From assembly GCF_011617245.1 (NCBI RefSeq), contig NZ_CP050152.1, forward strand, positions 2,532,503-2,596,502: a stretch of 64,000 bases of DNA, written 5' to 3'. Positions 1 to 57,548 of this stretch are shown here, piece by piece. How positions within the stretch are numbered: the first letter of the stretch is position 1; the number at the start of each line of letters is the position of its first letter. Made by a program: the position numbers and the translations under genes. A model generated the notes under the pieces. The model saw only the letters and a program-made list of their open reading frames with translations. It was not told the origin of the DNA and made no database searches. Source of the DNA: Brevibacterium atlanticum (GTDB lineage Bacteria; Actinomycetota; Actinomycetes; Actinomycetales; Brevibacteriaceae).

Positions 1-3000
1 TCGCCGAGGCGGCCGTGACCGGTGTCATCACCGCCGGGTCACATATCGAATCCCGGAACGACCGCGGGCCCCTGGAGCGAGCGCAGCTGCGTTCTCCCAC
101 ACCCGACGACGACTGCTGGGTGATCTTCACCTCCGGTTCGACCGGCACTCCGAAGGGTGTGGCCGTGACCCATCGCAGCGCCGCTGCCTTCGTCGACGCC
201 GAGGCGGCTCTGTTCTGCCGGCCTGAACCGCTGGGTCCCGGTGACCGGGTGCTCGCGGGTCTGTCCGTGGCCTTCGACGCCAGCTGCGAGGAGATGTGGC
301 TGGCGTGGCGCAGCGGTGCCTGCCTCGTCCCCGCTCCACGCGCGCTCGTGAAGTCCGGGATGGATCTGGGTCCGTGGCTGTCCTCACGCCAGATCACTGT
401 CGTCTCAACCGTGCCGACCCTGGCCGCACTGTGGCCGGCCGAGAGCCTCGACAACGTCCGCCTGCTCATCTTCGGCGGCGAGGCCTGTCCGCCGGAGCTC
501 GGCCGCAGACTCAATGACAACGACCGCGAGGTGTGGAACACGTACGGGCCCACCGAGGCGACCGTGGTCGCGTGCGCGGCCATGCTCGACGGCTCCGACC
601 CTGTGCGCATCGGTCTGCCGCTGAGCGGTTGGGCTCTGGCCGTCGTCGATGCCGATGGTGTTCCCGTGGCTGAAGGCGAGACCGGTGAGCTCATCATCGG
701 CGGGGTCGGCCTCGCCCGCTATCTCGACCCGGCCAAGGATGCCGAGAAGTTCGCTCCCATGCCCACTCTCGGCTGGGAGCGGGCCTACCGGTCCGGTGAC
801 CTCGTGGTCAACGATCCCGAAGGTCTGGTCTTCGTCGGGCGTGCCGATGAGCAGATCAAGCTCGGGGGTCGGCGCATCGAACTCGGCGAGATCGACGCCG
901 CCCTGCAGGCCCTGCCCGGCGTCGAAGGGGCAGCGGCCGCGGTGAAGACGACCCCGGCGGGCACGGACATCCTCATCGGCTACCTCGCCCTTGGTGGCTT
1001 GGGCGGTGCCGGTGATGGCGCCGGGCCCGGAGCCGGCGTCAGCACCGGCGCCGGTGCCGACGAATCCGACTTCCCCGGTTGGGAGGCCCGGCTGCGCGAG
1101 GAGCTTCCGGCGGCTCTCGTGCCCCGACTCGTCCTCGTCGACGAACTGCCGACGAAGACCTCGGGCAAGGTCGACCGCAATGCGCTGCCCTGGCCCCTCG
1201 GCGACGGCGATGAGTCCGGCGGAACCGATGAGACCTTCGATGCGGACACCGACTGGGTCGCACAGCAGTGGGCCGCCGTCCTCGGCGCCCGGCCGGGCAG
1301 CGACACGGACTTCTTCACCGCGGGCGGCGGGTCGCTTGCCGCCGCGCAGCTGGTCTCTCGCCTGCGCACCCGCCATCCCAGCGTGACCGTCGGCGACATC
1401 TACGCGCATCCGCGCTTCACCGCCCTGGCCAGGCTCTGCCTCGGCGAAGAGGGGTCGGGGATCGGCCCGGCGGGACCCAGACGCACGATCGGACGCACTT
1501 CGCGGGGGATGCAGATCTTCCAGGTCCTGCTCGGGATTCCGGTGCACATCCTCGGCGGGGTTCGATGGGTCGTGCTCGCAATGCTCGCGGCCAACCTCGG
1601 CGTCGGTCTGGGTGCGGATCTGCCGTTCACCCCGTGGCCGGTCGTCATCGTCCTCTTCCTCCTCTTCGTCACGGCGTGGGGTCGGATGCTCATCTCAGCA
1701 GGTGCCGCACGGCTGCTCATGGTCGACATCCGGCCCGGTGCCTATCCGCGGTCGGGGTGGGTGCACAAGCGGCTGTGGCTGGCTGAGCACATCGCCGACC
1801 TCGCCGCGGCCGTCTCGGTGGCGAGCGCCCCTTGGGTGACCTGGTACGCGAAGCTGTTGGGCAATCGGATCGGGGCCGACGCCGACCTGCATTCGGTGCC
1901 TCCGGTGACCGGGTTCCTCACCCTCGGCAAGGGGGCAGCCGTCGAACCCGAGGTCGACCTCAAGGGCTGGTGGGTCGACGGGGATCTGCTGCGCATCGGC
2001 CGCATCGACATCCGCAGCGGTGCCACCGTCGGTGCACGCTCGACGCTCATGCCCGGCGCCGAGGTGGGGTCCGGGGCACTCGTCGAAGCCGGCTCGGCGG
2101 TGACCGGGCAGGTGCGGAAGAACCAGATCTATTCGGGATCACCCGCCGTGCGGGTCGGGAAGGCGAAGAAGGCGTGGCCCGCTCCCCCGCCGAGGCGGCG
2201 TCTGCCGTTCCTGTTCTATGCCGCAGGCTCGCAGCTCAATGCGGCACTCCCCTATCTGGCGGTGATCCCGGGCCTCGCACTCATGCTCGGCGTCTCCGGG
2301 GTCGAGGTGCTCGAGTCACCGTGGCTGCTGCTGGCGTGGTCGCCTGTGCTGGCGTGCCTGTGGTTCGTCACCACGGCGCTGCTCATCCTCGTCTCCGTCC
2401 GGATCCTCGCGATCGGGATGGAGGAGGGAGAGTTCCCTGTCCGTTCGGCGCGCGGGTATCGGGTGTGGGCGACGGAGCGGCTGCTCGATCTGGCCCGCGA
2501 TCTGCTCTTCCCGCTCTATGCCTCGATGCTCACCCCGGTCTGGCTGCGGCTGCTCGGGGCGAAGGTGGGGCCGGGCACGGAGATCTCGACGGTCGTGTTC
2601 GTTCCGACGATGACGACGATCGCCGCCGGGGCCTTCCTCGCCGATGACACCATGGTCGCGAGCTACGAGCTCGGGCGCGGGTGGATGCGAGCGGGTCGTG
2701 CGAAGGTCGGCAAACGTGCGTTCCTCGGGAATTCGGGCATCGCCTCGCAGGGTCGGAGGGTACCGAAGAACGCTCTGGTGGCGGTGCTCTCGGCGGCTCC
2801 GGCGAAAGCGAAGAAGGGCTCGTCGTGGCTCGGGTCTCCCCCGGTGCAGCTGCGTCGTGCCGCCGTCGAATCCGATGAGTCGCTAACCTACTCCCCTACT
2901 ATCGGGGTGAAGGCGGCGCGCGGGTTCTGGGAGACGCTGCGGATCACCTCGGTGATTGCCGGCGGTGTCCTCATCACGGCGGTCGTGCTCACGATCTGGT

Positions 3001-3680
3001 TCCTCCTCGGTCTGCCCGGCGGGGTGGCGGCGGAGGCCACGGGCTTTGTCGCTTCGGTCGCTCTCGCCCTGCTCACCTCGGGGGTCGTGATGATGGCCGC
3101 GGGTGCGGTGGCGGCGGGTCTGGCCGTGGCCGCGAAGTGGATCCTCGTCGGTCGCATCTCGGCCGGGGAGCATCCGCTGTGGTCGTCGTTCATCTGGCGC
3201 AACGAGGTCGCCGACTGCTTCGTCGAGCTGGTAGCCGCCCCGTGGTTCACTCGCAATGCCGTGGGTACTCCCGCGATCGTGTGGTATCTGCGGGCGATGG
3301 GGGCGCAGATCGGGCACGGAGTGTGGTGTGAGAGCTATTGGCTGCCGGAGACCGATCTCGTCCGTCTCGGCGACAATTCGACGATCAACCGCGGCTGCGT
3401 CGTGCAGACGCACCTGTTCCACGACCGGGTGATGAGCCTCGATGACGTCGAGCTCGAGCCGGGAGCCACGCTGGGGCCCAACAGCGTCATCCTGCCCGCG
3501 TCGACGCTGGGCGAGAATGCGACGGTCGGGGCCACCTCGTTGGTCATGCGTGGGGAATACGTTCCGGCGCATGCCTATTTCAGCGGGAATCCTGTCATAC
3601 CCTGGGTGGATGCCCCAGAACTTCCCACACTCGAGCACGAAGGGCGCGACGATGCTGACTCACAGCGGTCACACGCTTGA
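1..3680 (+). CDS. Pls/PosA-type non-ribosomal peptide synthetase (poly-amino-acid synthetase-like), 5' truncated
   Basis: The gene is already open at the window edge (codons in phase with base 3), so part of the adenylation domain is missing. Visible adenylation motifs in order are the P-loop-like FTSGSTGTPKG, FDASCEEMW, NTYGPTEATV, YRSGDLV, GRADEQIKLGGRRIEL and the catalytic lysine in PTKTSGKVD. A carrier domain follows with its phosphopantetheine serine in TAGGGSLAA (codon at 1332). The rest, about 750 residues, alternates hydrophobic segments with three soluble blocks of hexapeptide-repeat (left-handed beta-helix) character. This is the architecture of epsilon-poly-L-lysine synthetase: A-T, then membrane segments with tandem C-like domains, and no classical condensation or thioesterase domain. 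The binding-pocket code I read by alignment to GrsA is DAESIGTVVK, close to lysine codes. The stop lies 29 bases inside the next gene. Family assignment is strong; the polymer made is inferred. Confidence 0.88.
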   Translation, partial: AEAAVTGVITAGSHIESRNDRGPLERAQLRSPTPDDDCWVIFTSGSTGTPKGVAVTHRSAAAFVDAEAALFCRPEPLGPGDRVLAGLSVAFDASCEEMWLAWRSGACLVPAPRALVKSGMDLGPWLSSRQITVVSTVPTLAALWPAESLDNVRLLIFGGEACPPELGRRLNDNDREVWNTYGPTEATVVACAAMLDGSDPVRIGLPLSGWALAVVDADGVPVAEGETGELIIGGVGLARYLDPAKDAEKFAPMPTLGWERAYRSGDLVVNDPEGLVFVGRADEQIKLGGRRIELGEIDAALQALPGVEGAAAAVKTTPAGTDILIGYLALGGLGGAGDGAGPGAGVSTGAGADESDFPGWEARLREELPAALVPRLVLVDELPTKTSGKVDRNALPWPLGDGDESGGTDETFDADTDWVAQQWAAVLGARPGSDTDFFTAGGGSLAAAQLVSRLRTRHPSVTVGDIYAHPRFTALARLCLGEEGSGIGPAGPRRTIGRTSRGMQIFQVLLGIPVHILGGVRWVVLAMLAANLGVGLGADLPFTPWPVVIVLFLLFVTAWGRMLISAGAARLLMVDIRPGAYPRSGWVHKRLWLAEHIADLAAAVSVASAPWVTWYAKLLGNRIGADADLHSVPPVTGFLTLGKGAAVEPEVDLKGWWVDGDLLRIGRIDIRSGATVGARSTLMPGAEVGSGALVEAGSAVTGQVRKNQIYSGSPAVRVGKAKKAWPAPPPRRRLPFLFYAAGSQLNAALPYLAVIPGLALMLGVSGVEVLESPWLLLAWSPVLACLWFVTTALLILVSVRILAIGMEEGEFPVRSARGYRVWATERLLDLARDLLFPLYASMLTPVWLRLLGAKVGPGTEISTVVFVPTMTTIAAGAFLADDTMVASYELGRGWMRAGRAKVGKRAFLGNSGIASQGRRVPKNALVAVLSAAPAKAKKGSSWLGSPPVQLRRAAVESDESLTYSPTIGVKAARGFWETLRITSVIAGGVLITAVVLTIWFLLGLPGGVAAEATGFVASVALALLTSGVVMMAAGAVAAGLAVAAKWILVGRISAGEHPLWSSFIWRNEVADCFVELVAAPWFTRNAVGTPAIVWYLRAMGAQIGHGVWCESYWLPETDLVRLGDNSTINRGCVVQTHLFHDRVMSLDDVELEPGATLGPNSVILPASTLGENATVGATSLVMRGEYVPAHAYFSGNPVIPWVDAPELPTLEHEGRDDADSQRSHA

Positions 3681-5013
3681 CCCCTACACGCCCGGAGTCG
3701 GCAGCGCCGATCTGAGCATCGACCACTACGACCTCGATCTCGACTACCGGATCGGGCCGAATCGACTCTCGGGCAGGGCGGTACTCACGGGACGGGTGCT
3801 GACCGAGACGAAGACGATCGTCCTCGACCTCACGGGACTGCGGGTGAGCAAGGCCAGCGTCAACGGGACGAAGGTCCGGTTCTCCGCCCGAGGGAAGAAG
3901 CTGCGGCTGACGACACCGCAGCTGACCAGGGACCAGCCTGTGCGCATCGAGATCAGCTATGCGGGCAATCCGCAGCCGGCGATCGGCACGTGGGGCGACA
4001 TCGGGTGGGAGGAACTCGAGGACGGGGTGCTCGTGGCCGGTCAGCCGGTCGGAGCGTCGACGTGGTTCCCGTGCAATGATCACCCCTCGGACAAGGCGAA
4101 GTACCGCATCAGGGTGCTCGTCGAAAGCGAGTACACGGTCGTGTCCAATGGCGCGCTGACGGAGAAGGTACGCAAGGCCGGGCGCACGCAGTGGACGTAT
4201 GAGTCGACGACTCCCCTGGCGACGTATCTGGCGACGGTGCAGATCGGCCGGTACCGAAACGGGACGATCCCTGTGGGCTCGGGGGCGACGGGTGGTGCGA
4301 GGGCCTCAGGGGCGAGGGGAGTCGGTGCCGCGGAGTCCCCCGTTCCGCTCGGCCTCTACGCCGCTGACCATTGGGATGCGGCGCTGGACCGGCTCGGCGT
4401 GCAGCACGGGATGATGAACCTGTTCATCGACCGTTTCGGGCCGTACCCGTTCGACGTCTACGACGTGGTCGTCACCGATGACGAGCTCGAGATTCCCCTC
4501 GAATCGCAGCCGTTGTCCGTGCTCGGACCCAATCATCTGGGCACCGACTGGGAAGCTGAGCGCCTCGTCGCCCATGAGATGGCCCACCAGTGGTTCGGCA
4601 ATTCGCTGACCCCGTCGCGGTGGCAGGACATCTGGCTCAACGAGGGCTTCGCCTGCTATGCCGAGTGGCTGTGGTCGGAGGAGTCGGGCCGGGCGACGGC
4701 GCACGAACGGGCAGAGGAATGGTGGGAGGACCTGTCGGCCCAGCCGCAGGACCTCCTGCTCGGCGATCCGGGCGGACCGGACATGTTCGACGATCGCGTG
4801 TACAAGCGCGGGGCGCTGTGCCTGCACGCTCTGCGTCGGGAGATCGGCGATGCCGACTTCTTCGCCAGCCTCAGCGAGTGGACGACGAAGCACCGCCATT
4901 CCTCGGTGAGCACCGAGGACTTCATCGCCTGCGTCTCGCAGGTGACCGGCCGCGATATCGCCGAGGTGGTCCGGCCCTGGCTCGACGAGTTCGAACTCCC
5001 CGACTTGCCGTAG
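3652..5013 (+). CDS. M1-family zinc aminopeptidase (short form)
   Basis: A 453-residue M1 metallopeptidase with the zinc-binding HEMAHQW (His308, Glu309, His312) and the downstream Asn-Glu-Gly-Phe supplying Glu331. The substrate-anchoring GxMEN motif is replaced by ELEIPLESQ (residues 278-286), and the catalytic tyrosine is probably Tyr384 in RVYKRG. It ends soon after the catalytic domain, so it lacks the long C-terminal helical domain of PepN. The ATG at 3652 is chosen because homology starts there; a longer in-frame opening upstream is only the shadow of the synthetase. Its first 29 bases overlap the synthetase 3' end, which implies co-expression. M1-type enzymes (Pld) are known to degrade epsilon-poly-lysine in Streptomyces albulus, so a polymer-trimming or self-protection role is a reasonable inference. 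Confidence 0.9.
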   Translation: MLTHSGHTLDPYTPGVGSADLSIDHYDLDLDYRIGPNRLSGRAVLTGRVLTETKTIVLDLTGLRVSKASVNGTKVRFSARGKKLRLTTPQLTRDQPVRIEISYAGNPQPAIGTWGDIGWEELEDGVLVAGQPVGASTWFPCNDHPSDKAKYRIRVLVESEYTVVSNGALTEKVRKAGRTQWTYESTTPLATYLATVQIGRYRNGTIPVGSGATGGARASGARGVGAAESPVPLGLYAADHWDAALDRLGVQHGMMNLFIDRFGPYPFDVYDVVVTDDELEIPLESQPLSVLGPNHLGTDWEAERLVAHEMAHQWFGNSLTPSRWQDIWLNEGFACYAEWLWSEESGRATAHERAEEWWEDLSAQPQDLLLGDPGGPDMFDDRVYKRGALCLHALRREIGDADFFASLSEWTTKHRHSSVSTEDFIACVSQVTGRDIAEVVRPWLDEFELPDLP

Positions 5014-5062: not shown

Positions 5063-5908
5063 TCAGACGAGCCGGCGGACGAGGACGTCGGAGTCCCCGT
5101 TGCGCCCCACGGAGACGAAGCCGTGATCGGTGTAGAGCTTCGCGGCCCCGTTCCCATCGGCCACGGACAGGCTCACGGCCGGGAAGCCGCTCATCCGCGC
5201 GAGCGCACACACAGTGTCGACGAGCGCCCCACCGATGCCCTGGCCCTGATGATCGGGCAGCACTGCGATCGAGAGTTCGGGGATGTCTGCGGCGACCCAT
5301 CCATAGCCGGTGAACGGCGCACCGTTCTCGGCCGGCATCAGGGTCGCGGCCGATTCGTGATCGGCGGAGATCCCGCCGTCGGACCGCCCATCACCGGACT
5401 GCCGATCAGAAACCTGTCCACCGGCATCCCCGTCATCGGGCTGCCCCTCGCCAGCCTTCCCGGCGAGGACGACCTCACTGCGGACCACCTCGGCGCCGGT
5501 CTTGCCCAAAGCCGCGGCGAAGTCCCCGCCGACGCGCTCCTCGGCCCTGCCCACGACGTCGGCGATGTCAGCCAGCCGCACCCAGGCCAACCCGACGATC
5601 GGTGACTCAGGATCGGCTTCGGCGTGGGCGGCGACCGCGATGTCGCCGTCCCGACCCCAACCGCGATAGTAGAAGGCGGCGTCGCTGCGTCCGCGGAGCT
5701 CGTCGATCTCGATGCGCGGTGTGTCCATCGACCAGTTGAAGCACAGGTCGAGGAACGGGAGGAAGGTCTCGTCGTCGGTATCGGCCGGCAGCGGACGGAT
5801 CCGGCCACGCAGGGAGGACGCGGATTCCGCGGCCCCCGCCCCCACCTCGGCGGGTGTGTCGTTCGACTCGGACGCTTCGGGTGCACCGTGATTCGGCTCA
5901 GCGTTCAT
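5063..5908 (-). CDS. GNAT-family N-acetyltransferase
   Basis: A 281-residue protein with the acetyl-CoA pyrophosphate-binding motif LPDHQGQGIGG (about residues 218-227) and a typical GNAT C-terminal half ending in KLYTDHGFVSVG. The N-terminal half (about 36-147) looks like a second, degenerate GNAT-like segment. The halves are joined by a low-complexity Gly/Asp/Ser linker (about 148-195). The ATG overlaps the stop of the upstream MATE gene as ATGA, indicating translational coupling. The substrate cannot be read from the sequence. Beside a putative cationic polymer synthetase it could acetylate amines, but that is speculation. Confidence 0.82.
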   Translation of the reverse strand: MNAEPNHGAPEASESNDTPAEVGAGAAESASSLRGRIRPLPADTDDETFLPFLDLCFNWSMDTPRIEIDELRGRSDAAFYYRGWGRDGDIAVAAHAEADPESPIVGLAWVRLADIADVVGRAEERVGGDFAAALGKTGAEVVRSEVVLAGKAGEGQPDDGDAGGQVSDRQSGDGRSDGGISADHESAATLMPAENGAPFTGYGWVAADIPELSIAVLPDHQGQGIGGALVDTVCALARMSGFPAVSLSVADGNGAAKLYTDHGFVSVGRNGDSDVLVRRLV

Positions 5909-7221
5909 GAGATTCCTTTCTCGACGGCGCGATCGATCCACGCCCGGTTGCGGACTCGCCAGCCCAGGGTCAGCGCTCGGAATCCCACGAATCCGATGCA
6001 GAAGGCGGCCCAGAGTCCCGGTGCTCCTGGCCAGATCGAGACGATCGGGACGAGCAGGATCACATACCCGACCACAGCGACCAATTGTGCCAGAGCGAGG
6101 TAGCGAGCGTCCTCGGCTCCCATCAGGACCCCGTCCAGGACGAAGACGTACCCGGCGATCGGCATGCTCAGCGCGAGCACCGGCAGGAGGGCGCTGAGCG
6201 CGCTGACGACCGCAGGATCGGAGGCGAAGGCGCGCGGGATGATTCCGGACCCGGCGAACAGGATGACGCCGACGATGATGCCGAACGCGATCCCCCACAG
6301 GCACAGGCGCCGGTTGATCGCGGCCACGGCGTCGATGTTCCGCGCGCCGAGTTCGAGCCCGATCATCGCCTGACCTGCGATGGCCAGGGAATCCAAAGCC
6401 AGCGCGAGAGCGAAGAAGAGGCTCTGCGCGACCTGGATCGCTGCGAGATCGGTCGTGCCCAGAGAGGTCGCGATGAACACGAGGATGATGAGCGCCGCAC
6501 GCAGGGAGGCATTGCGCACAAGCAGCCATCCCGACGTCTTCGCCGAGGTGAACACGCCCGACCAGTCGGGACGGACGCTGGCGTGGAGGCGCTTTGCCGC
6601 CCGCACGGAGATGATGAGATAGACGGCGCACATGCCGGCCTGGGCGATGACGGTTCCCATCGCCGATCCGGCCACGCCCATGCCGAGACCGTAGATGAAG
6701 ATCGCGTTGAGGCCGATGTTCGCCACACATCCGGCGGCAGCGACGATCAGCGGGGTCTTCGTGTCCTGGAGCCCGCGCAGCAGACCGGTGGCAGCGATGA
6801 CCGTGAGCATGAACGGCAGCCCCCACCACGAGATCGCCAGGTAGGCATGCGCACCGTCGGTGATCCCCGGCCCCGGATCGAAGGCTGCGATCACCGTGCT
6901 GAGCAGGGGCAGGCCGATGATGATGAGCAGCACCGAGGTGCCCAATGCGAGCCAGATCCCGTCGAACCCCGCCGTGATCGCCCCCGCCCGGTCCCCCGAT
7001 CCGATGCGTTTCGCTACCCGCGGCGTCGTGGCGTAGGCGAGGAAGATCATCAGTCCCAGCACCGTCTGCAGGATCGTCGAAGCGATCGCGAGCGATCCCA
7101 GGGCATGCGCGCCGAGGTGGCCGACCATGGCCGTGTCAGTGAGCAGGAAAATCGGTTCGGCGATCAGTGCTCCGAGGGCCGGAAGTGCCAAACGGAGAAT
7201 GTCCTTGTCGATCGCTGCCAC
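5905..7221 (-). CDS. MATE-family efflux transporter (DinF-like)
   Basis: A 438-residue polytopic membrane protein with about twelve hydrophobic segments in two homologous halves. It opens with LALPALGALIAEPIFLLTDTA, the typical N terminus of DinF/MATE exporters. These are Na+- or H+-coupled drug and metabolite exporters of the inner membrane. It starts with GTG and its 3' end overlaps the GNAT gene by four bases, so the two form an operon. The upstream region is the repeat-rich spacer at 7222-7588. It converges on the peptide synthetase block; export of that product is possible but unproven. Confidence 0.88.
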   Translation of the reverse strand: MAAIDKDILRLALPALGALIAEPIFLLTDTAMVGHLGAHALGSLAIASTILQTVLGLMIFLAYATTPRVAKRIGSGDRAGAITAGFDGIWLALGTSVLLIIIGLPLLSTVIAAFDPGPGITDGAHAYLAISWWGLPFMLTVIAATGLLRGLQDTKTPLIVAAAGCVANIGLNAIFIYGLGMGVAGSAMGTVIAQAGMCAVYLIISVRAAKRLHASVRPDWSGVFTSAKTSGWLLVRNASLRAALIILVFIATSLGTTDLAAIQVAQSLFFALALALDSLAIAGQAMIGLELGARNIDAVAAINRRLCLWGIAFGIIVGVILFAGSGIIPRAFASDPAVVSALSALLPVLALSMPIAGYVFVLDGVLMGAEDARYLALAQLVAVVGYVILLVPIVSIWPGAPGLWAAFCIGFVGFRALTLGWRVRNRAWIDRAVEKGIS

Positions 7222-7275
7222 ACCCCGATTCTAGCGAAGGGGTCGGACACCGTCGGTGACGTACCTGGTGGGGTG

Positions 7276-7365
7276 GGTTGTGTGGCGTGGGCTGGTGGTG
7301 GGGTGCGGGCAGGTGGTGGGGTGCGGACGAGTAGTAGGGCGGGGACAGGTGGTGGGTTGGCGGCA
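7276..7365. repeat. 18-bp G-rich tandem repeat array (5 units)
   Basis: Five consecutive 18-base units. The best two, at 7294 and 7312, share GGTGGTGGGGTGCGG; the units at 7276, 7330 and 7348 are more diverged. G runs are confined to the plus strand, so the array could form G-quadruplexes. It lies upstream of the GTG of the MATE gene and upstream of the HNH gene. Because the unit is a multiple of three, every frame across it reads as a hexapeptide repeat; I do not regard these frames as genes. Confidence 0.8.
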
Positions 7366-7588
7366 GGTGAGTGCGATCTCATGTCAGTGGCGAAGGATAC
7401 AGTTGAGGAACAAATCGATCAGGCGTTGGCAGAATGTTCTTAGAACTGCATATTGCGCATGTTCTTGCTCTTCCGTTCTATTTGTAATCGTATTGTGATG
7501 TTAATTATTAGGCTGAATCCGTATAATTGAGATAGGCAACGATCCTGACGATCAACATCCACAGCGACGTGGAGAGGGGGAAGCACCG
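7366..7588 (+). promoter_or_regulatory. AT-rich upstream region of the HNH-endonuclease gene
   Basis: After the G-rich array the composition shifts sharply to AT-rich around 7440-7560, unlike anything else in the first 40 kb of the window. This is the probable promoter region of the downstream gene. Just before the ATG at 7589 there is a purine-rich Shine-Dalgarno, GAGAGGGGGAAG. I could not place a convincing -35/-10 pair. Confidence 0.45.
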
Positions 7589-10397
7589 ATGAAGAATATC
7601 GGCGACGGCGGCAACTCTGCGTCGAACCTGCCCCCAGCTCCCCCCTTCCGACGCGAGCGTCGCCACTCTGTCCGAGTACCGCCGTGCACACGGCCGTCGG
7701 CTCGAAGTCGCCGAGGACTACGAACTCGTCGACCTGCTCCAGGCCTACGCGGAGAGCAGCATCGCTCAGATCAACTCGCTCGTCGCTACCAGCAAGGTCG
7801 TCGTTCAGGACGTCGCCTACGTCCTCGGGCTCACAGGCAGCGAGCTCGACGACGTCTACGAGTTCGCGTCGTTCACCGAGACTGTCGCTCGCCACCGCAG
7901 CGCCGAAAGCGACGGACCGGCCATTGCTGAATCGTCCGACGCGCCCGCCGGCGCAGAAGCATCCGCCGTCGAACCAGACGCCGACCGCTTCCCACCCGCA
8001 TCGATCGCGGCCCTCACGGCCGCCGAGGCAGCTGCGTGGGCCGCAGCCAAGGCACGGGTCGAGGCCGAGACCGGCACGATGTTCGCCAAAGGCAAGGGTC
8101 AGAAGAAGAACCGTGCGGCGGGCCGCCTCCTTCGTCGTGCCGCCGAGCTGGCCGAAGAGATCCTCGCCACCCCGGCTCCCCTGCCCGACTTCCCGGGGTA
8201 CGACCCGACCCAGACGTTCTTCACCTGGTTGCGCAGCAACCTCGAACCGACCGAGGCAGGTGTGTATTCGAGCCTGCTCGGAGCCACGACGAGCAATGCC
8301 CTTAAGCACATGACCGCGTCGATGACGCTCGCTCACGGACTGCCGAAGTTCCTGCGCCGCTGCCTCGACGGCGACTTCACCATCGAGCACGTCGACTGCG
8401 TGACCCGGGCCTGCCGTGACCTCCATTTCGAGAACCTGCCGACCATCGACGAGTTCCTCGGTCAGAGGCGTGCAGACATCACGATCGAAACGTTCAAGCG
8501 CTCGCTCGCGCTCAAGATCGCCGCAACCCAGGCTCCCGAAGACACGCTCAAGAACGTCGCTCTGCGTCGGCGCGTCGACCTCACCACCGGCGACGACGGC
8601 ACCGCCTACCTCACCCTGACCGGTCCCGCGCCGGAGCTGCAGGCGTGCTTCCGCCGGCTCGATGCGTTCGCTCGCGCCGTGTACAAGAGCAACACCAGTG
8701 CGTTCTCCGATCAGCTCAAGGCCGGAGACTGCTTCGACGAGGACCGGTCGATCTCGGCGCTGATGTTCGACATCCTCACCCGCACGAGGCCGCAGATGAA
8801 GCTGCGCATCATCAGCACCAATGACGCCGACGGCGCGTCGACGAGCACCGACTTCCCGCTCGACGGACTCTTCGCCGGACCCGACGGAGTCCCCATGCAC
8901 GAAGGCGAGTCACTGCTCGACTACATCGAACGCGTCTTCGACGACCTGCACGAGACCGGGTATGCCGAGGCTTCAGGGGAGAAGTCTGTCTCGACAGAGG
9001 CTGCGGACGGGGCGGAGACTGAAGTCGCCGGAACGACCGGGTCGACGCCGACTGGCACTGACCCGACGACCGTTGCCGAGGCGATGACCGGCGCCGACTC
9101 GACGACCCCGGCCGATCGCGCCTTCGAGTCACAGATCCTCGAAGCGATCCTCAGCAGCAGCACCACGTCAAACCACGCAGATGGCAACCCCACGAGCGAC
9201 GCCGCGGACATTCGCACGACCACCCGCTGCGGTGCACCGAACGGTGTGAACCGCACCGCCGTCAGTGACGCACTCTCATCGCTGATCGGATCCCGTGCCA
9301 GAGGAGCTCGCCCCGCCGCCGAAGGACATGCCGACGCCACTGACGGCGCAGTCGACGCCTTCGGAAACACCATCCACTACGAGGGCGGTCACCGGATCAG
9401 CTTCGAGTTCCTCCTCGACATGCCCACCAGCGAGTACTGGCTGGCAAACCAGGCCAGCACGTTCATCACCGTGCCCATGCTCACCCTGCTGAGCCAGGTC
9501 ACGGAGGATGCAGGCAGCGCGGGCGACCGAGCAGCCGCGGAGACAACCGAATCGGAGGACCATCCGACACCGACCGCCGAAGCGCACACCGCCGAAGTAC
9601 AGACCACAAGCACCGACCCGACGAAGCGAGCCGCAAAACGGCTGTCCTCAGGAGAAGTGTGCGATCTGGCCGGCATGCTTCCGGACGGTTCGCCGATTCC
9701 GGCCGACATGGCGCGCAGGGTCGCGGGCTACTCCACCACGTGGACGCGCCTGCTCACCGACCCTGCGACCGGGACGCCGATCGACGCCAAGGCGAAGACG
9801 TACGCCATACCCAACAACGTGCGCAAAACGCTCGTCGCACAGTACGCGACCTGCACGTTCCCCGGCTGCACCCTGCCGGCCGAGACTTCGGAAGTCGATC
9901 ACATCGACCCGTTCGACAAGGCCGACCCCAGCCGGGGAGGCCTCACCCGTTTCGGCAACCTCCATTGTCTATGCAAGCTGCACCACAGCCTCAAGACCGC
10001 GAAGAAGTTCGACGTCCGGATGACCGAGCCCGGGCACCTCGAGTACGTGCTCCGCCGTGGTGTCACCGTCGAGGTGACTGCTCCGGACAACCCGCTCAAC
10101 GTCGAGCACGCCCGCCAGTTCCTCGAGCGCTTCGGCACTGCCCTGCCACGAGCAAACCGACCGCTCGCGTCGGAGCCCGTCACGGACGAAGCATCGACGG
10201 CCGAAGAGACCCCTGCACGTGGAAGGCGGCGGCAGGCACGGGAGTGTCCCGAACCTGCCGCCGCCGAAGGACAGCCGGGGTGGCGCGAGGCCCCGTCCGA
10301 CCCCTTTGCAGGGTTCGCCGATACGCCCGATGCGCACACGGCCTCTGTCGAGCTCCGTGATTGGTTCTGGGACTCCGGCGAGCCTCCGCCGTTCTGA
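7589..10397 (+). CDS. DUF222/HNH-endonuclease domain protein with apparent +1 frameshift near its start
   Basis: The main reading frame (phase of 7647 to 10397, about 916 codons) encodes an N-terminal DUF222 region and a C-terminal HNH nuclease: paired cysteines in CTFPGC, then EVDHIDPFD, then GNLHCLCKLHH. Between them is a long Thr/Ala/Glu-rich insertion (roughly 8950-9640) that makes the protein unusually long for the family. The conserved frame has no ATG, GTG or TTG between the upstream stop at 7590 and codon 8079, yet reads convincingly as protein throughout (LSEYRRAHGRRLEVAEDYEL). The only start with a good Shine-Dalgarno, ATG 7589, is in another frame. The two frames join if one base is skipped at the C6 tract 7640-7645. 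So the gene is a pseudogene, carries a sequencing error, or is phase-variable. DUF222/HNH genes are multicopy in many actinobacteria; their role is poorly known. Confidence 0.8.
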
Positions 10398-51742: not shown

Positions 51743-51861
51743 TTGCGGCAGTCACCTACTCTCCCACAACCACCAAGTTGCAGTACCATCAGCGCGAATG
51801 GGCTTAGCTACCGGGATCGGAACGGTTAACCGGGCGTTTCCCCACCACTATCACCACCGCA
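51743..51861 (-). rRNA. rrf: 5S ribosomal RNA
   Basis: About 119 bases. The minus strand reads GCGGTGGTGATAGTGG, then GGGAAACGCCCGGTT, and ends GGGAGAGTAGGTGACTGCCG, the standard 5S structure. It is the last gene of the rRNA operon. Ends are good to a few bases. Confidence 0.93.
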
Positions 51862-52028
51862 AAACCACACAGACCACCACCACAACCCCACAAAAAAGAG
51901 GCCTCAGGCGGTAGTGGTCCAAGAACCGCACAGCGAACGCGAACACCCCTGATGCAACACCCCACAAGGAGCGGATCTTCAAACAATCATTCAGAGCAAC
52001 AAAACTCGCACACACACCAACCACAATT

Positions 52029-57107
<5,079 letters not shown>

Positions 57108-57548
57108 AAAATCATGGTACGAATGAATCCCAGCAAGACAGCCAACCCCTCACGGGGTGAGAAGGTTGACCAAAAAACAACCAAACACCACAACTGCTCA
57201 CCCCACTATGTTGTGGGAGGTTCGGCGAAGAACCACCCACACAGGGCGAACACAGATGCTTGGCCGTGTGATTGTCTCACCAGAAAATAAATGTTCTGGC
57301 ATCACAACTTGTTCAAACAAACACGCTATTGGATTCTCAAACCACAAACACACACCCATCACCACACACAAGCGTGTTCACTGGGGGCATCAGTTTCTGT
57401 TGTCTCGGTTCACCTCGACCGAAGCGGCAACCAACTGTTCAAACTGACGTTTGCGCTGGTCACACTCGGTGGAAACTGTTCTCTAAGAGTTCGTTTCCGG
57501 TGAGCCGAACGAGATATAACTCTAGACCACGGAACTCGATGCGTGCAA
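57108..57548 (-). promoter_or_regulatory. rRNA operon promoter and leader
   Basis: The leader includes a boxA-like GTGGTTTGAGAATC (57331-57345), the same block as in the 16S-23S spacer, and sequence able to form a processing stem around 16S. A promoter candidate is TTGCAC (57543-57548) and TAGAGT (57519-57524), 18 bases apart; TATATC at 57512-57517 is an alternative -10. The rest of the stretch up to the yccF stop shows no gene. Confidence 0.6.

Follow-up and report, generated by a model that had tools for sequence, protein, structure and literature searches.

Organization, predicted substrate, and distribution of a probable epsilon-poly-L-lysine synthetase-M1 peptidase gene pair in Brevibacterium atlanticum

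A Pls-type synthetase gene overlapping a short M1 peptidase gene

The stretch of DNA analyzed here (64,000 nucleotides, hereafter the window) covers positions 2532503 to 2596502 of the B. atlanticum genome, a single contig of 4.16 Mb. At its left edge lies the 3′ part (1,225 codons; 3 to 3680, plus strand) of a gene for a Pls-type (epsilon-poly-L-lysine) synthetase. The frame is open at the edge, and approximately 385 to 460 bases of the 5′ end fall outside the window, to the left. From the flanking genomic DNA, the complete pls gene was placed at L007:5044 or 5119 to 9183, with 1,379 codons from a TTG start or 1,354 from an ATG; the ATG is the more plausible start. The synthetase scored 630.9 bits against NCBIfam TIGR02353 (Pls/PosA family; curated cutoff of 423.1), with the terminal-domain profile aligned over positions 2 to 695 of 695, and Pfam identified AMP-binding and PP-binding (carrier) domains. 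These matches bear out the A-T-membrane-tandem-C layout proposed in the initial annotation. Most of the adenylation (A) domain lies at 3 to 1205 (plus strand), followed by a thiolation (T; carrier) domain at 1251 to 1436 (plus strand; PF00550, residues 417 to 478) with its GGGS serine (GGGSL at residue 595 of the full-length protein) and by the Pls/PosA terminal region, with the membrane segments and three tandem C domains, at 1518 to 3596 (plus strand; TIGR02353, residues 506 to 1198). Hydropathic segments were found at residues ~662 to 712, 903 to 953, 1015 to 1033, and 1138 to 1191 of full-length Pls. The resulting layout, A-T-TM/C1-C3, contains neither an ordinary condensation domain nor a thioesterase domain. 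The nearest named relatives of this Pls are those of B. iodinum and B. epidermidis (88 to 89%).

The second gene (3652 to 5013, plus strand; about 453 amino acids) begins at an ATG preceded by GAAGGG. A longer open reading frame call, with a start at 3442, was rejected as unlikely in favor of 3652. Pfam matched its product to M1 (PF01433; 107.7 bits) and M1_N (PF17900; 70.3 bits), and a motif search located the zinc site HEMAH-(18)-E at residues 308 to 312 and 331 (4573 to 4644, plus strand). With the HExxH-18-E active site intact, a Tyr-containing YKRG stretch present, and the PepN-type C-terminal domain absent, the protein is a short M1 zinc metallopeptidase, as first proposed. The 29-base overlap originally reported between the two genes also held, at exactly 3652 to 3680 (plus strand). 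Because many other Brevibacterium loci, including the nearest ones, overlap in the same register, this overlap is not due to chance, and it is consistent with translational coupling.

The lysine pocket and the predicted polymer

The ten substrate pocket positions were mapped via the A-domain core motifs known from GrsA. By a wide margin, the best solved structure for the synthetase was 7WEW, the A domain of Streptomyces albulus Pls (E = 8.3e-190; 69% identity over 472 aligned residues), with 82 of 108 residues identical in the core from A3 to A5. Alignment to this solved domain reproduced the earlier pocket reading, DAESIGTVVK, and agreed with 7WEW at all ten positions, above the 8 of 10 shared with the bacitracin lysine code on which the initial claim of a lysine-type pocket was based. 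The structure-based alignment, therefore, returned a lysine pocket and not a non-lysine one. The pocket was invariant across pls-linked loci (110/110 readable; 1 more is truncated ahead of the pocket). S. albulus Pls also has the same domain order and an M1 gene directly downstream; however, the window Pls belongs to a Brevibacterium/Micrococcaceae branch, and whole-protein identity, as measured on S. albulus-clade relatives, is about 53%. S. albulus Pls and Corynebacterium variabile Pls are 51% identical, and the latter has been proved to make epsilon-poly-lysine (PMC8117764).

Work on PosA, the Acinetobacter delta-poly-L-ornithine synthetase, indicated that side-chain length is set by pocket position 2, where Ala goes with lysine, Met with ornithine, and Phe with diaminopropionate, and that both amines are bound by Asp (position 1) and Glu (position 3) (PMC10522769). 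Positions 1, 2, and 3 of the window Pls are D, A, and E. PosA is a synthetase of the same kind and the same family (TIGR02353), but its pocket is DMEHNGTVSK and its gene forms a single-gene operon without a peptidase, whereas the window combines DAESIGTVVK with a peptidase gene (PMC10522769). It is very improbable that the window enzyme makes some other cationic polymer, from ornithine, diaminobutyrate, diaminopropionate, or beta-lysine. The family does make all of these polymers (PMC10522769, PMC8117764), and Brevibacterium paralogues with other pockets exist; nevertheless, position 2 is in the lysine state and has neither the Met of the ornithine enzyme nor the Phe of the diaminopropionate enzymes (PMC10522769), the pocket is that of 7WEW throughout, and the pldII-type neighbor is the context of pls, three other synthetases compared having different gene contexts (PMC8117764). 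Judged by the pocket alone, a closely similar diamino acid, for example beta-lysine, may also fit; the identified neighboring genes included no lysine aminomutase.

Some of the Brevibacterium family synthetases differ from the window Pls. In G054, G053, and G043 (L193, L194, and L195), a paralogue with the pocket DAESIGTVIK or DAESIGSVIK has no M1 neighbor; it shares 47 to 49% identity with the window Pls, and its place in the tree is with S. albulus Pls. A further family synthetase (L191, in G007) has the pocket DFECLSVVTK, with Phe at position 2 as in diaminopropionate and diaminobutyrate enzymes, and likewise has no M1 neighbor.

We consider it probable (roughly 0.88) that the two genes are a Brevibacterium pls-pld module, in which Pls makes and the M1 peptidase hydrolyzes epsilon-poly-L-lysine. 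The lysine pocket, together with the peptidase phylogeny described below, supports the functional reading of the pair as synthetase and degrader with which the analysis began. In this module, the A domain would activate L-lysine and load it onto the carrier domain, after which the membrane-embedded tandem C domains would join lysines via the epsilon-amino group to yield epsilon-poly-L-lysine. The peptidase, presumably translated from the same message through the overlapping genes, would hydrolyze the polymer, either shielding the producer from its own polycation or recycling it. As judged from sequence, genes for making and breaking down epsilon-poly-lysine are very likely present; the polymer formed, its isopeptide linkage, the substrate of the peptidase, and self-protection are predicted by analogy with published work on relatives.

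Distribution of the pair and phylogeny of the peptidase

In every locus examined, both the 80 named ones and those of Brevibacterium, pls is followed on its own strand by an M1 gene. The distance is mostly no more than about 120 bases but reaches 600 to 2,150 bases in some Williamsia and Tsukamurella. These loci were picked by Pls similarity, such that they show constancy of the pair among near relatives and not across the whole family. The same arrangement was found in 16/16 fetched Streptomyces loci. A survey of 57 Brevibacterium species, which were counted singly with kinship uncorrected, is less biased than the similarity-picked loci. Pls exceeded the cutoff in 44 species, 43 of which also carry the short M1 gene; 13 have neither gene and hold PepN types only, and one (G054) has only the divergent Pls paralogue and no short M1 gene. 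The short M1 gene without pls was found in 0 of the 57 species. More broadly, a near Pls A domain was detected in 96 of 395 genomes drawn evenly from the class and in 166 of 393 genomes of a genus taken as Streptomyces, an assignment inferred from its 5 to 7 SsgA paralogues and from its best members being 94% identical to 7WEW. Within this genus, one pocket is common to two Pls branches, of which the first is of the S. albulus type (75 to 94% identical to 7WEW) and the second is commoner (66 to 71%). Some genomes (G993, G1063, G981, and G1121) contain the two types together, and every fetched copy is accompanied by an M1 gene of its own (L175 to L190).

The initial annotation correctly placed the pair in an actinobacterium outside Streptomyces, the host being Brevibacterium; the novelty it implied did not stand, since a Pls-peptidase operon outside Streptomyces was described by Jiang et al. 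in 2021 (PMC8117764). In that study, 14 of 15 Brevibacterium isolates had Pls, and homologues whose pocket was identical or almost identical occurred in Corynebacterium, Brevibacterium, Arthrobacter, Microbacterium, Rhodococcus, and others (PMC8117764). Judged from its published description, the C. variabile/coryneform operon is the same module in the same bacterial group, and we saw no relevant difference from the window pair (PMC8117764). Epsilon-poly-lysine is also named in recent Brevibacterium genome papers (PMC12467314, PMC12904602). The pair is therefore real but already described, a very widespread actinobacterial gene pair. A pathway for a food-preservative polycation, together with a coupled PldII-group degrader, would be common and conserved in Brevibacterium as well as in many further actinobacteria.

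A silent or nonproductive pair, left as the remnant of a secondary-metabolite locus, is unlikely here. Cultures of C. variabile yielded neither polymer nor detectable Pls, the product of this enzyme being seen only in a Streptomyces host (S. coelicolor) (PMC8117764), which makes silence a real possibility in the window strain as well. Against this, both frames are intact, all catalytic motifs are kept, and the pair is retained in most of the Brevibacterium species surveyed.

The relationship of the peptidase to other M1 enzymes was assessed in a tree of 55 rows (31 pls-linked M1 proteins, 22 unlinked short Streptomyces M1 proteins, and two PepN paralogues). One branch (support 92/99; 88% of bootstrap trees) separated all 31 pls-linked rows, five of them from Streptomyces whose Pls is 76 to 94% identical to 7WEW, from the 22 unlinked proteins and both PepN paralogues. 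A single origin of the pls-linked enzymes is likely, short of proven because the branch lies under the strict 95% mark. The window M1 thus groups with the pls-linked/PldII enzymes and apart from general aminopeptidases, the outcome that the original proposal had anticipated of a peptidase phylogeny. M1 enzymes are mostly general aminopeptidases and the function of the window M1 is a prediction; nonetheless, we give little credence to a general aminopeptidase that neighbors pls incidentally, considering its position in the tree, its low identity (29 to 30%) to the genome's two other M1 proteins, which are large PepN types, the survey result that the short M1 never occurs without pls in the genus, and the overlap register kept across the genus.

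Leader peptides and the predicted site of the degrader

In S. albulus, pldII adjoins pls and is reported to encode the main degrading enzyme, located outside the membrane (PMC9223678); this enzyme breaks down epsilon-poly-lysine, and its translation is coupled to that of pls (PMC9223678, PMC8117764). The window M1 resembles PldII in being short, of similar length, adjacent to pls, and apparently coupled to it (PMC9223678), and the M1 proteins encoded beside S. albulus-type pls group with it in the tree. Identity to the PldII-type enzymes of S. albulus relatives is 43 to 45%. These enzymes have a twin-arginine-like leader and the exopeptidase motif APVENQ (VENQ), whereas the window M1 has no leader and reads IPLESQ (LESQ).

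The leader was present in 8 of 8 S. albulus-clade M1 proteins (e.g., MTRCTRRALIRGAALVPLAA in L180), and the other 121 linked M1 proteins scanned, including that of the window and near-duplicates from one genus, all stayed below that hydropathy before the core; the scan was a hydropathy count and not a trained signal-peptide predictor, with start codons inferred. The window M1 therefore lacks the leader expected of an enzyme located, like PldII, outside the membrane. Because of this missing hydrophobic leader, we name it a PldII relative, PldII-type by tree and gene position, and not PldII itself. The distribution of leaders suggests that the degrader outside the S. albulus clade stays in the cytosol, and the absence of an S. 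albulus-type leader likewise points to cytosolic action of the window peptidase. We would give even odds to the broader proposal that in most actinobacteria the Pls-coupled peptidase is a cytosolic epsilon-poly-lysine hydrolase and that the S. albulus clade, with its exported twin-arginine form, is the exception. If true, the module would in general serve to keep the cytosol free of polymer, or to recycle the polymer, and not to destroy what has been secreted. Depending on its site, the degrader could serve self-protection within the cell, turnover, or the trimming of polymer outside. A search of the literature for leader peptides of the degrader found nothing.

Elsewhere in the window, a complete 16S-23S-5S rRNA operon (51743 to 57108, minus strand) coincides with a drop in GC; neither its spacer nor the rest of the window contains a tRNA gene. 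Immediately to the left of the window lies a divergent gene for a cog1228 dipeptidase-like amidohydrolase (L007:3722 to 4936, minus strand), whose solved relatives include an Arg carboxypeptidase. Its candidacy as a third, polymer-finishing part was dropped, as only the five closest Brevibacterium loci of the 80 named ones have it next to pls. Convergent with the peptidase gene are genes for a GNAT acetyltransferase and a MATE/DinF-type efflux protein (5063 to 7221, minus strand); among the 80 named loci, these neighbors are kept only within Brevibacterium.
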